Source: Caulobacter segnis (GTDB lineage Bacteria > Pseudomonadota > Alphaproteobacteria > Caulobacterales > Caulobacteraceae). From it: a stretch of 64,000 bases of DNA. Numbering within the stretch: the first letter of the stretch is position 1; each line of letters starts with the position of its first letter. Location of the stretch: positions 992,001-1,056,000 of the forward strand of contig NZ_CP096040.1 of the NCBI RefSeq assembly GCF_023935105.1, read 5' to 3'. The notes below the pieces were generated by a model, which was given only the letters and a program-made list of their open reading frames with translations, made no database searches and was not told the origin of the DNA. Shown in pieces: positions 1,406 to 8,362 of the stretch. A program made the position numbers and the translations under genes.

Positions 1406-2626
1406 ATGAGCCAAGACGACCAGATCCTCGATGTCGCCGTGATCGGCGGCGGGCCGGCCGGGCTGATGGCGGCCGAGACGATCGCCCGAAGCTTCGGAAA
1501 TGGGGCCGGCAAGTCCGTGGCCGTGTTCGAGAAGATGCCGACCTTCGGGCGCAAGTTCCTGATGGCCGGACGCGGCGGGCTCAATCTCACCCACGCCGAG
1601 GATTTCGACCTGTTCGTGGACCGCTACGGCGCGCGCGCCGAGACGCTGGCGCCGATGCTGGAGGCGTTCGCCCCCGCGGACCTAGTCGCCTGGGCCCAGG
1701 ACCTGGGCCAGCCGACCTTCGTCGGGGCCAGCGGCCGAGTGTTTCCCAAGGCGATGAAGGCCTCGCCGCTGCTGCGGGCCTGGCTGGCGCGGCTGGAGGG
1801 GCTGGGCGTCCAACTGCGGACGCGGGCCGAGTGGACCGGCTGGAGCGCCGACGGCGGTCTCCTGATCAACGGTGAGGTCGTGCGCGCCCGGACGGTGGTC
1901 CTGGCCCTGGGTGGGGCCAGCTGGCCCCGGCTCGGCTCGGACGCGGCCTGGGTCGGGGCGCTCGAAGGGCAAGGCTGCGCCGTCGCCCCGTTCCGCGCCG
2001 CCAACTGCGGCTTCGACGTCGCCTGGAGCACCGTGTTCCGCGAGCGCTTCGCCGGCGAGCCGCTGAAGAACATCGGCCTACGCCATGGCGAGAAGGGCGC
2101 GCGCGGCGACGCCATGGTCGCCGGCTATGGCCTGGAGGGCGGGGCGGTCTACGCCCTGGCCGCTCCGCTGCGCGACGCCATCGAGGCTGACGGCCGGGCG
2201 GTTCTGACCATCGACCTGCGCCCCGACATCCCGGTCGAGACCCTGGAGCGCCGGCTGCACGCGCCGCGCGGCGGCCAGAGCCTGGCCAATTTCCTGCGCA
2301 AGGCGGTCAAGCTGTCGCCGGTCGAGGTCAACCTGCTGCGCGAGGCCCACGGCCTGGATCTGCCCGTCGCGCCCGCGGCCCTGGCGGCCGCGATCAAGGC
2401 CGCGCCCATCGTGCTGACCGATGTCCAGCCCCTGGACCGCGCCATTTCGGCCGCCGGCGGCGCCCGGTTCGAGAGCCTTGACGGCCTGGCGCTGAAGGAC
2501 CGCCCGGAGGTGATCCTGGCCGGCGAGATGCTGGACTGGGAGGCCCCGACCGGCGGCTATCTGCTGCAGGCCTGCTTCGCCAGCGGCGTGGCGGCCGGGA
2601 AGCAGGCGCTGGCGCGGCTGGGTTAG
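1406..2626 (+). CDS. NAD(P)/FAD-dependent oxidoreductase, HI0933/YhiN family
   Basis: Predicted cytosolic flavoprotein of 406 residues, close to the TIGR03862 branch of the HI0933 family; the physiological substrate is not established. The dinucleotide-binding GGGPAGLMAAE motif is at about residues 13-23. The family motifs GRKFLMAGRGGLN (near residue 49) and the C-terminal APTGGYLLQACFASG are present, the latter closing over FAD. Start ATG follows AAGGG. The gene sits 17 bases behind the rplA terminator on the same strand, so it may receive only read-through or have its own promoter. Its stop overlaps the stop of the convergent hydrolase-HIT gene by 4 bases (2623-2626). Confidence 0.9.
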   Translation: MSQDDQILDVAVIGGGPAGLMAAETIARSFGNGAGKSVAVFEKMPTFGRKFLMAGRGGLNLTHAEDFDLFVDRYGARAETLAPMLEAFAPADLVAWAQDLGQPTFVGASGRVFPKAMKASPLLRAWLARLEGLGVQLRTRAEWTGWSADGGLLINGEVVRARTVVLALGGASWPRLGSDAAWVGALEGQGCAVAPFRAANCGFDVAWSTVFRERFAGEPLKNIGLRHGEKGARGDAMVAGYGLEGGAVYALAAPLRDAIEADGRAVLTIDLRPDIPVETLERRLHAPRGGQSLANFLRKAVKLSPVEVNLLREAHGLDLPVAPAALAAAIKAAPIVLTDVQPLDRAISAAGGARFESLDGLALKDRPEVILAGEMLDWEAPTGGYLLQACFASGVAAGKQALARLG

Positions 2627-3984
2627 GGCTTCATCGCCGCGCGGATCCTCGCGGCCATCGCCTCCAGGTCTTTCGGATCGGCGGGCGCGTTCTCGACCAG
2701 ATAGGCCGGCTTGCCGGCGACGCGCGGGATCACGTGGACGTGCAGGTGCGGCACGCTCTGGCCGATCCCGTTGTTCTGGATCAGCATGAAGCCCTCCAGG
2801 CCCAGGGCGTCGACCTCGGCCTGGCCGACCTTCTGGGCGACCGCCATGACCTTGGCGAGGTCCTCGGGATCGATCTCCAGCAGGGTGCGGGCCTTGGAGG
2901 TCTTGGAGATCACCAGCACGTGGCCGGGCTCCATCGGCGCGCGGTCCATGAAGGCCAGGACGTCGGCGTCCTCGTAGACCTTGTAGGCGGGCAGCTCGCC
3001 GCGAATGATCCGGGCGAAGACGTTGTTGTCGTCATAGGCGGCCCGCAGCGGGATCCGCGTTCCGACCGTCGCCGCGCTCTGGGGATCGAACCGGGCCAGC
3101 CAGCGGATCACCTCGCTCTCCAGCGCGATGCGGGCGTCCGAGAAGCTGTGGTCGGTGGCCAGATAGGTCTCGGTCAGGTCCTTGGCGCCGGCCGCGCGGG
3201 CGGCGGCGGCCAACTTGCGCGTGGTGGGCGCGCCGGCGAACTCGGCGCCGATCATCAGCACCGGACGATCGGCGATGCGGGCGGAGAGCCGCTCAAGGTC
3301 CAGCTTGGCGGCGTCGCGCTCGATCTCGGCCACCAGGGCCTCGGGCGTCGTGGCCAAGGGCGCGGTGTCTGGGCGCATGCCCTCGATGGCGGTCTTGCGG
3401 GTCTGGTCGCTGGTGACGCCGGCCTTTTCCTTGCCGATGTCCCAGGAGTCGATCAGCACGGTCCCGGCCACGTCCCGCCGCGCGGTCGAGGCGCTGGCGG
3501 CCATGAAGCCGCCCATGCTGTGGCCCGCGACGACGATGCGCTTGGGGTCGATGTGGTACTTGGCGATGTTGGCGGGATCGGTCAGCCAGGCCACCGCCGC
3601 CTCGCCGTCGGCGCGGGCGTTCTCGAAGCTGAACCTGCCCTGGCTGCCCCACGAGCCGCGATAGTTGATCCGCATGGCGTTCCAGCCGGCGCGCCGCACC
3701 GCCTGCAGCAGGTCGATATTGGTCTCGTTGCCGGGGAAGCCGTGCAGGAACAGCAGGGTCGGATGCGGCTGCTCGCCCGAGGCCGTGTACAGGATGGCGT
3801 TGATCTTCGAGCCGGCGACGTCGACCTGGAAGGCCGCCATGTCGGCCGGGTGCTCCTTGTCGCGCGCGGGATCGGCGACCACGGCGCGCGGCGTCGGCGC
3901 GACCTTGGGCTCGGCCAGGACGGGCGCGGCGACCAGCGCCCCCAGGAGCAGGGCGCACGCCCCGGCGATCAGCTTGCGAGTCAT
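2623..3984 (-). CDS. Exported alpha/beta hydrolase fused to a C-terminal HIT domain
   Basis: A 453-residue two-domain protein. Residues 1-24 look like a Sec signal peptide ending VLA. Residues about 45-300 form an alpha/beta hydrolase with an oxyanion HGFPG segment (81-85), nucleophile elbow GHSMGG (Ser156) and a likely catalytic His in a TDHSFSD segment. Residues 317-453 are a complete HIT domain starting YDDNNVFARI and carrying the HLHVH triad (His413, 415, 417). HIT proteins hydrolyse or transfer nucleotide alpha-phosphates in the cytoplasm, so export would be unusual. There is no ATG, GTG or TTG codon at the junction that would start a separate HIT protein. I chose the ATG at 3984 because it begins the signal peptide. 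Divergent from the SRPBCC gene. Confidence 0.85.
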   Translation of the reverse strand: MTRKLIAGACALLLGALVAAPVLAEPKVAPTPRAVVADPARDKEHPADMAAFQVDVAGSKINAILYTASGEQPHPTLLFLHGFPGNETNIDLLQAVRRAGWNAMRINYRGSWGSQGRFSFENARADGEAAVAWLTDPANIAKYHIDPKRIVVAGHSMGGFMAASASTARRDVAGTVLIDSWDIGKEKAGVTSDQTRKTAIEGMRPDTAPLATTPEALVAEIERDAAKLDLERLSARIADRPVLMIGAEFAGAPTTRKLAAAARAAGAKDLTETYLATDHSFSDARIALESEVIRWLARFDPQSAATVGTRIPLRAAYDDNNVFARIIRGELPAYKVYEDADVLAFMDRAPMEPGHVLVISKTSKARTLLEIDPEDLAKVMAVAQKVGQAEVDALGLEGFMLIQNNGIGQSVPHLHVHVIPRVAGKPAYLVENAPADPKDLEAMAARIRAAMKP

Positions 3985-4073: not shown

Positions 4074-4472
4074 ATGGCTTCGATCCACAAGGACATCCTG
4101 ATCGACGCGAGTCCGGAGACGGTCTGGGACGCCGTGCGCGACGTCGGCGCGATCCACGAGCGGCTATGCCCGGGCTTCGTCGTCGATACCGAGATGGTCG
4201 ACGACGGCGCGGCCCGCATGGTCACCTTCGGCAACGGCATGGTGGTCAAGGAAGTGATCGTCGACCTCGACGACGCCCGCCGCCGCCTGGTCTGGAGCGT
4301 TCGGAGCGAACGCCTCGCGCACCACAACGGCGTCATGCGCGTCGAGGACGCCGGCGAGGGCCGTTCGCGGGCCGTCTGGACCGCCGACGTCCTGCCGCAC
4401 GCGGCGGCCGAAAGCGTGGGGCCGATGATGGAGATGGGACTGGCGGCGATGAAGGCGCGGCTGGAAGCGTGA
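4074..4472 (+). CDS. SRPBCC (START-like) family protein
   Basis: Small cytosolic protein of 132 residues of the polyketide cyclase/START-like superfamily, a helix-grip fold that encloses hydrophobic ligands. It opens with the family pattern IDASPETVWDAVRDVGAIH. A glycine- and charge-rich beta sheet follows, and it closes with a long helix (GPMMEMGLAAMKARLEA). The start follows GGGAGG. It is divergent from the hydrolase-HIT gene with only 89 bases between them, and the rplJ promoter lies just behind it. The ligand cannot be told from sequence. Confidence 0.8.
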   Translation: MASIHKDILIDASPETVWDAVRDVGAIHERLCPGFVVDTEMVDDGAARMVTFGNGMVVKEVIVDLDDARRRLVWSVRSERLAHHNGVMRVEDAGEGRSRAVWTADVLPHAAAESVGPMMEMGLAAMKARLEA

Positions 4473-7126: not shown

Positions 7127-8095
7127 CTAGCGCGGGTCGACGCGCGCCTGCGACGAGGCATGGGCCCGCAACGCGGCGCAGGCGGCGGCCCAGGGGCGAC
7201 CATCGTCATCCAGGGCAGAGCGCAGGTAGGCCCAGGTCATGCGCAGGACGATCTCCAGCCGATCGGGATCCTCGTCGTCGGTCTCGCGGGCGTCGTAGCC
7301 CGAAATGCCGCCCAGCCCGTGCTTGGCGCCGAGCACGGTCATCAGCGCCTCGGCGCCGGGGCTCTCGTGGAACGGGTCGGCATGCCAGGCCGGCCCGCGC
7401 ACGGTGAGGTGAGCCGAGGCGTCGTCGCTGCCGATGACGACCAGGCTCCTGGTGGTCATGTGCGAAAAGTCGGGATTGAAGAAGGTGTAGTTGCTGGCCG
7501 CCATCTCGCTCAGGCTGTCGCCGCCTTTGCCAGGCGCGGTGAGAAGCACGCCGGCCTTGATGCGGGGCTCGAGCAGGTTGACGTCCTGGGCGTCCGGATC
7601 CTTCGGGTCGGTGAGCCGAGCGCCCAGCAGCATGCCGGCGGTTTGACCGCCCATGGAATGACCCACAACCGCGACCTTGCCGTGATCCAGACGTCCCTTG
7701 AAGGCCGGGGCCGCCGCCTCGATCTCGTCGAGACGGTCTAGGATCAGGCGCATGTCCTCGACGCGAGACCGCCAGAAGAGCGGTCCGCCGGCGGCGCCGG
7801 CCGGAAGCCCCGCGACCTTGGAGTTCAGATGGGTGGGCTGGATCACGACGAAGCCGCGCTCGGCATAGAAATTGACCAGCGGGCCGTAGCCATCCTTGGA
7901 GGGGATGTAGTTCGAGGGGCCGTGACCGTGTGACAGCAGCACGATGGGCAGGCCGTCGCCTTCGGCGGGGCCCGTGACGCGCAGTTCGAGCGGCAGCGGC
8001 CGCTCCGTCGTGGCCAGGGTGATCGGACTGACCGAGATCGTCGTCCGGGCCTCGTCCACCGGGATGTGACGCGCGTCTTTGATGAGGTTGTTCAT
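7127..8095 (-). CDS. Alpha/beta hydrolase, chlorophyllase/dienelactone-hydrolase-like
   Basis: Predicted serine hydrolase of 322 residues with the nucleophile elbow GHSMGGQT, an oxyanion SHGHGPSNY segment and acidic/His residues in the expected order. No signal peptide. Two ATG codons are possible. The one at 8095 (MNNLIKDARH) is preceded by GGAG at a good distance, whereas the upstream one at 8116 has no ribosome-binding site, so I use 8095. It precedes the AraC regulator on the same strand. The substrate is not identifiable; an ester or lactone is most likely. Confidence 0.82.
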   Translation of the reverse strand: MNNLIKDARHIPVDEARTTISVSPITLATTERPLPLELRVTGPAEGDGLPIVLLSHGHGPSNYIPSKDGYGPLVNFYAERGFVVIQPTHLNSKVAGLPAGAAGGPLFWRSRVEDMRLILDRLDEIEAAAPAFKGRLDHGKVAVVGHSMGGQTAGMLLGARLTDPKDPDAQDVNLLEPRIKAGVLLTAPGKGGDSLSEMAASNYTFFNPDFSHMTTRSLVVIGSDDASAHLTVRGPAWHADPFHESPGAEALMTVLGAKHGLGGISGYDARETDDEDPDRLEIVLRMTWAYLRSALDDDGRPWAAACAALRAHASSQARVDPR

Positions 8096-8362
8096 GGCTG
8101 CCTGCTCCGGGATCATGCCGCGCGGCGATGAGCGCCGGCGTCGTGATGGAAGCTAAGGCGTCCGCGAAATGCTTCACTCACGGAGCGCGCCATTCAACTG
8201 GCGGAATGCGCCAAAGGACTGGCCGCGGAGCGCCACGAATAGGATTCAAACCAAGCGTCGGAAGCTGCCGCGCTCGCCTTCGGCTTGGTGTCATTGACGC
8301 CTCTTGAACTCTTTCCCGTTTCGCCCGAAGCCAAGGTCCTCGAACCACCTCGGCAGGGCTTC

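Follow-up and report, generated by a model that had tools for sequence, protein, structure and literature searches.

Histidine triad (HIT) enzymes are usually located in the cytosol, and the physiological substrates of most of the bacterial ones are, to our knowledge, unclear. What, then, is a complete HIT domain doing in the same reading frame as a signal peptide and a serine hydrolase? The question is raised by one gene (positions 2623-3984, minus strand) in a 64,000-nucleotide stretch of Caulobacter segnis (contig NZ_CP096040.1, positions 992,001 to 1,056,000; hereafter the window). The answer favored here, with a probability of roughly 0.6, is that the encoded protein works in the periplasm and has two functional active sites, one for carboxylester hydrolysis and one for nucleotidyl hydrolysis. 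In the proposed mechanism, signal peptidase I would release the fusion protein into the periplasm, where its hydrolase domain (Ser156, Asp179, His279) would cleave a carboxylester or an amide. The HIT domain would use its central His415 to cleave a nucleoside-5'-phosphoryl bond, of the AMP-N or AMP-O-P type (AMP, adenosine monophosphate). The enzyme would likely serve to break down acylated or aminoacylated nucleotides in two steps, or to clear two separate types of substrate for scavenging. Dimerization driven by the HIT domain would be expected here as well, known HIT proteins being dimers.

Translation of the minus strand yields an uninterrupted frame of 453 amino acids that begins MTRKLIAGACALLLGALVAAPVLA|E, the bar marking a cleavage site placed by eye. 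A preliminary description of this DNA, which named no strand, had read a signal peptide, a GHSMGG serine hydrolase and an HLHVH HIT domain in this single frame, and both translation and Pfam bear this out. The HIT family PF01230 matches residues 329-421 with 79.8 bits against a cutoff of 21.5, while Abhydrolase_3 and Abhydrolase_6 exceed their cutoffs within residues 77-281. A full-length fusion is carried by 24 of 75 Caulobacter genomes, including the one studied here. The architecture and the catalytic residues are conserved across these 24 copies, and each domain forms a single clade; export, activity and cooperation of the two domains are inferred. The features of the gene, all on the minus strand, are as follows.

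2623-3984, minus: fusion gene, 453 codons plus stop TAA (complement of 2623-2625); from translation, with the same full-length fusion in the genus
3913-3984, minus: signal peptide, residues 1-24, with basic n-region, hydrophobic core and VLA|E cleavage site (by eye)
3085-3873, minus: alpha/beta-hydrolase domain, residues ~38-300; from Pfam, the AlphaFold model and fold matches
3508-3525, minus: nucleophile elbow GHSMGG (Ser156), residues 154-159; GHS[ML]GG in 24/24 fusions
3448-3450, minus: Asp179, proposed catalytic acid after strand 6; from alignment and tree
3148-3150, minus: His279, proposed catalytic histidine (TDHSF); invariant in 24/24 fusions
3040-3084, minus: linker, residues 301-315 (15 residues); low model confidence at residues 305-307, and the highest median nonsynonymous divergence (dN) of the four segments compared
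2626-3039, minus: HIT domain, residues 316-453; PF01230 and the 3lb5 fold match
2920-2922, minus: His355, upstream HIT histidine, equated with E. coli HinT His39 by motif place; 24/24
2749-2775, minus: short loop NNGIGQSVP preceding the triad, residues 404-412; pattern in 24/24 fusions
2734-2748, minus: histidine triad HLHVH, residues 413-417; HLHxH in 24/24 fusions

Other profile collections add little to this layout. All 12 NCBIfam matches to the fusion protein fall below their cutoffs; therefore, no NCBIfam equivalog model describes it. Four PHROGs families match, two named as esterases and two of unknown function that cover the HIT part. The plus strand of 2623-3984 is likewise open, as is common for frames at about 71% G+C. 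The only PADLOC match is to ThsC, a HIT model, which aligns with the HIT part (2626-3039) at 35.7 bits and is read as plain HIT similarity.

Two proposed active sites

The mature protein was modeled with AlphaFold from an 84-row alignment. The model has a mean predicted local distance difference test (pLDDT) score of 91.1 and a predicted template modeling score of 0.71; the two stretches with pLDDT below 50 are mature residues 1-10 and, corresponding to residues 305-307 in the linker, mature residues 281-283, and the block mean is 75 at mature residues 401-410. For the first domain, lipase TTL and feruloyl/cinnamoyl esterases give fold matches with Z scores of about 26-27.5. With a GxSxG nucleophile, an acid and a histidine (Ser156, Asp179 and His279) and a fold match of Z 27.5, this domain belongs to the alpha/beta-hydrolase superfamily. 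The second domain matches 3lb5 with a Z score of 22.2 and a root-mean-square deviation of 1.6 Å over 134 residues at 46% identity; the segment HLHVHVI at 413-419 is the HxHxHxx triad of the HIT superfamily, to which triad, PF01230 match and fold all assign it.

In the HIT domain, His355, Gln409, Ser410, His413, His415 and His417 are invariant in all 24 fusions. In E. coli HinT, the central histidine attacks phosphorus and the upstream histidine (His39) assists (PMC7157772). The loop before the triad sets the fusions apart from the housekeeping HIT proteins of the genus, reading NNG[VI]GQS[VM]P in 24/24 fusions versus NG[AT]PAGQT[IV][FY] in 26/26 housekeeping proteins, i.e., it is two residues shorter, with Ser for Thr and Pro for Phe/Tyr. 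The 30 outgroup HIT proteins vary at these positions, some of them also carrying QS or Pro, so the deletion together with its constancy is what marks the fusion loop. We read the shorter loop as a probable sign of a shifted substrate rather than of decay.

The main rival explanation is a HIT domain without catalytic function, a nucleotide-binding, sensing or dimerizing module by which the exported esterase is regulated or paired. It would suit the dimeric habit of HIT proteins and the short linker of low model confidence, and a shortened pre-triad loop could alter catalysis. However, a pure binding module need not retain a nucleophile, whereas here the three triad histidines, His355, Gln409 and Ser410 are all kept, and the HIT part is under more constraint than the esterase part. 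This rival is unlikely, albeit the strongest of those considered. Over 276 pairs, the median pairwise ratio of nonsynonymous to synonymous substitution was 0.38 for the HIT domain, 0.52 for the hydrolase, 0.69 for the signal peptide and 0.80 for the linker, values from a simple counting method that are rough and, at this high G+C content, unreliable in absolute terms. Both domains look constrained.

For the hydrolase domain, the alignment comprised the 24 fusions and 60 stand-alone proteins, and Ser156 and His279 are conserved in all 84. The position of the acid divides them: Asp179 without Asp249 occurs in all 24 fusions and 14 of the 60 stand-alones, and Asp249 with Ser or Ala at position 179 occurs in 45 of the 60, whereas the remaining stand-alone (L071) has neither in this alignment and carries an Asp one place on. 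In the fusions, residue 249, the usual place of the acid after strand 7, is Phe, His, Arg, Tyr or Leu. The catalytic acid therefore appears to sit after strand 6 (Asp179) rather than strand 7, an assignment made by the mutual exclusion of the two residues in the alignment. Est1E (2wtm), LJ0536 (3pf8) and lipase TTL (7q4j) share the fold and the serine nucleophile of this domain, but at only 14-18% identity, and carry their acid after strand 7, whereas that of the fusion is proposed after strand 6. On the hydrolase tree, the swap between Asp179 and Asp249 is one change. An acid after strand 6 is described as functional in ZEN lactonases and in CE15-B esterases (excerpts of PMC10913051 and PMC10233622, respectively). 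What is new here is the apparent position of the acid after strand 6 instead of strand 7; as a single shift from one strand to the other in a family that can be traced, it would make the hydrolase half a clean natural case.

Predicted export and its alternatives

The signal peptide was called by inspection and hydropathy. In all 24 fusions, the N-terminus has a basic residue, followed up by a hydrophobic core and a site resembling a cleavage site. Twenty of them match the cleavage-site pattern; in the remaining four, read by eye, position -1 is Ala and position -3 is T, G or L. Across the fusions, the letters of this segment vary by substitution and in-frame indels with the pattern kept, as those of signal peptides usually do. 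A signal peptide was also seen by eye in 18 of 20 stand-alone hydrolase relatives, so export looks ancestral to the hydrolase. The preliminary description, which had offered either a periplasmic nucleotide hydrolase or an unused signal peptide, is partly supported: the fusion is genuine and conserved, and Sec-type export with cleavage by signal peptidase I is strongly suggested by its N-terminus. Its idea that the pair acts on nucleotide-linked esters is, like activity of the HIT domain outside the cytosol, a hypothesis.

Could the HIT part nevertheless be made on its own? The claim that the junction has no alternative start largely stands, as 22 of the 24 fusions lack ATG, GTG or TTG in the codons aligned to residues 301-330. 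A GTG occurs near residue 292 in 14 of the 24, but in the model this codon falls inside a late helix of the hydrolase. Separate production of the HIT part thus seems unlikely.

A cytosolic bifunctional enzyme could also arise if the signal peptide were unused or if a shorter form started near residue 35-49. In-frame start codons (ATG, GTG or TTG) are found between the residues aligned to 25 and 55 in 24/24 fusions, and the usual location of HIT enzymes would fit such a product. In an excerpt of PMC1173108, the HinT of M. hominis is stated to be cytosolic. However, the signal-peptide features persist in every fusion although the letters vary, most of the stand-alone hydrolases carry them too, and a Met near residue 49 is missing in 7 of the 24. 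Export of the whole fusion is therefore preferred, and a cytosolic enzyme would be distinctly improbable.

Known relatives and possible role

Both kinds of domain are well known, but their pairing and a conserved exported HIT domain were not found described in the open-licence literature, where, judged by titles and the starts of abstracts, no report of an alpha/beta-hydrolase-HIT fusion or of an exported bacterial HIT enzyme was recognized. The bacterial HIT proteins 3lb5 (Bartonella henselae), 1y23 and 3imi have fold, sequence, HxHxHxx triad and upstream histidine in common with the HIT part of the fusion. In contrast, their chains comprise 145-161 residues and include no hydrolase, whereas the fusion HIT sits behind an exported one, and in the alignment the 3lb5 loop is two residues longer. 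A parallel in architecture is NitFhit (PDB 1ems; worm and fly), in which a second, unrelated hydrolase likewise stands N-terminal to the HIT domain; the worm protein was found among the distant HIT relatives in sequence searches. NitFhit differs in being eukaryotic, in belonging to the Fhit branch, in having no known signal peptide and in having a nitrilase rather than an alpha/beta-hydrolase as partner. The joining of the nitrilase to Fhit is described in an excerpt of PMC9913352. The fusion is thus a bacterial parallel to NitFhit.

MccH, the HIT phosphoramidase of microcin C resistance, belongs to the same superfamily and suggests another role. The fusion would act outside the cell and detoxify peptide-nucleotide ("Trojan horse") antibiotics, its hydrolase trimming the acyl or peptide part and its HIT domain cutting the P-N bond. 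HIT phosphoramidases can inactivate processed microcin C (PMC7157772), and the distribution of the fusion is patchy and dispensable. In the MccH clade, however, Lys replaces the third triad histidine and Phe the upstream one (PMC7157772), whereas the fusion has neither substitution, His417 and His355 being invariant in all 24 copies. Membership in the MccH clade, of which a Glu five residues ahead of the triad motif is a further mark, is rejected on these two positions, the two substitutions tested. Furthermore, none of five neighboring frames scanned with Pfam looks mcc-like, and E. coli HinT is reported as largely inactive on processed microcin C (PMC7157772, from part of that source). Because the tested MccH signature is absent, microcin-type detoxification is a lead only, and very improbable as the role of the fusion.

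Several points weigh against a periplasmic enzyme with two active sites. Export and activity are predictions from sequence, with the signal peptide called as described above, and the early in-frame starts are universal among the fusions. The mature protein lacks Cys in 24/24 fusions, but this is a weak point: 22 of 26 housekeeping Caulobacter HIT proteins also lack Cys, so its absence counts little for export. An alternative acid is residue 248, Glu or Asp in each of the 24 fusions; Thr or Ala at this position in three of the 14 Asp179-bearing stand-alones favors Asp179. In the model, the HIT loop is among the less confident parts (mean pLDDT 68 at mature residues 381-390), and the triad and domain geometry are putative. 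Finally, 51 of the 75 Caulobacter genomes lack a full-length fusion, which is therefore dispensable to the genus.

If an intact HIT domain is indeed kept beyond the cytosol and linked to an esterase, the search for its substrate would be narrowed to the periplasm and perhaps to a molecule with both an acyl-type bond and a nucleotide. In 2005, the physiological substrates of HinT proteins were called unclear (excerpt of PMC1173108). A more specific and rather speculative proposal is that Caulobacter carried cytosolic nucleotide chemistry across the inner membrane by fusing it to an exported esterase, giving a dedicated periplasmic HIT enzyme. Acting on nucleotide conjugates outside the cell, such an enzyme might first remove acyl or aminoacyl groups and then split the nucleoside phosphoryl bond, either as a means of scavenging or to disarm nucleotide antibiotics before they are imported.

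Origin, distribution and neighborhood

The hydrolase domains of the fusions form one clade (support 100/99) in a tree of the 24 fusions and 60 stand-alones, next to stand-alone Sphingobium and Gluconacetobacter enzymes. These exported stand-alone hydrolases (among L061-L072) share 44-49% identity with the fusion, a signal peptide by eye and the Asp179-type acid, and form its nearest tree branch; they differ in lacking a HIT domain, ending shortly past the place where the linker of the fusion begins. The HIT tree (139 columns, midpoint root) contained the 24 fusions, the 26 housekeeping HIT proteins of the genus and 30 others. Here too, the fusions form one clade (99/96), apart from the housekeeping proteins (100/94); derivation of the HIT part from the housekeeping HIT of the genus is not supported by these separate clades. 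Relative to the rest of the sampled HIT proteins of its type, the fusion HIT is an outer branch, with support of 96/88 for the branch grouping the others on this alignment and rooting. Two HIT matches were found in each of the 24 fusion genomes, as against one in each of the other 48 genomes with a match; three of the 75 have none, all under 90% complete. Because each domain is one clade and the fusion genomes have a second HIT besides the housekeeping one, a single fusion event that added an extra HIT domain to the 3' end of an exported-hydrolase gene fits best. A donor of the HIT domain was not found among 289 class and 249 phylum genomes at E 1e-36, a threshold passed by one class genome (that of the window) and two phylum genomes (that of the window and L140). 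The protein of L140 is 53% identical and, judged by its start MSLMGQYD, a stand-alone HIT. One fusion-bearing genome, G017, also carries a separate stand-alone hydrolase of the strand-7-acid type (G017:C7:696100-696993, L195).

Beyond the genus, searches covered samples of increasing breadth. Among 390 genomes of the family, 83 match at E 1e-45, of which only the 24 fusions span both domains and the other 59 match with the hydrolase part alone. The order sample (398 genomes) yielded eight matches at E 1e-75, all from Caulobacter, and the class sample (385 genomes) only the genome studied here. In a collection of named genomes, one hydrolase and one HIT peptide pattern found 29 loci, comprising 17 fusions, all in Caulobacter, and 12 stand-alone hydrolases (seven in Sphingobium, two in Gluconacetobacter, one in Anaerolineae and two in bins); these 17 all belong to the 24 and are not independent evidence. 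No fusion was found outside Caulobacter in the family, order and class samples or in the named-genome collection. Carriage by mobile elements was rejected, as none of the 63 plasmid and 19 phage records with a match had one place covering 80% of the protein. That a sequencing error or local mutation had joined two genes, for which the preliminary description had proposed looking for separate genes in relatives, has a negligible chance and is excluded because all 24 congeneric copies are fused in a frame free of internal stops, and the 23 besides that of the window are 63-85% identical to it.

The neighborhood was compared in the 17 fusion loci. In all 17, the fusion sits at the rplK-rplA / rplJ-rplL ribosomal block, and the nearest of the neighbor proteins sought is the same HI0933-like flavin adenine dinucleotide (FAD) oxidoreductase; rplA lies in the examined flank of 16 of the 17, and so does rplJ. 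Such constancy is the pattern that a vertically kept locus inside this block would show. In the window, the stop codons of the fusion (minus) and the convergent oxidoreductase (plus) overlap at 2623-2626; in the 17 relatives, the distance between the fusion and oxidoreductase matches varies between a few bases and about 1000.

Five fusion-free genomes were read around the oxidoreductase as a check for an empty site, and one of them, G003, has a clean one: no recognizable remnant of the fusion is present in its rplA-oxidoreductase-rplJ block, which contains a VOC-like frame, identified by eye in translation. G072 has rplA and rplK on one side, with neither rplJ nor the fusion within ~4.9 kb on the other, and G008, G058 and G048 have none of the four ribosomal genes in the stretch examined.

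Two further frames lie near the fusion in the window. A Polyketide_cyc2/SRPBCC gene (4074-4472, plus) stands between the fusion and rplJ; homologs occur in 19 of the 75 genus genomes (E 1e-15) and, by coordinates, stand beside the fusion only in G000, G017 and G012. A second hydrolase-like frame with GHSMGG (7127-8116, minus) has no Pfam match at E 1e-5. Around the stand-alone hydrolases, no HIT gene was found in the flanks of about 1-5 kb of 20 loci, and the neighbors at one Sphingobium and two Gluconacetobacter loci form no clear pathway. In two Gluconacetobacter species (L065:4941-7578 and L070:4647-7405), a same-strand amidase gene (PF01425) directly follows the stand-alone hydrolase and is possibly its functional partner.

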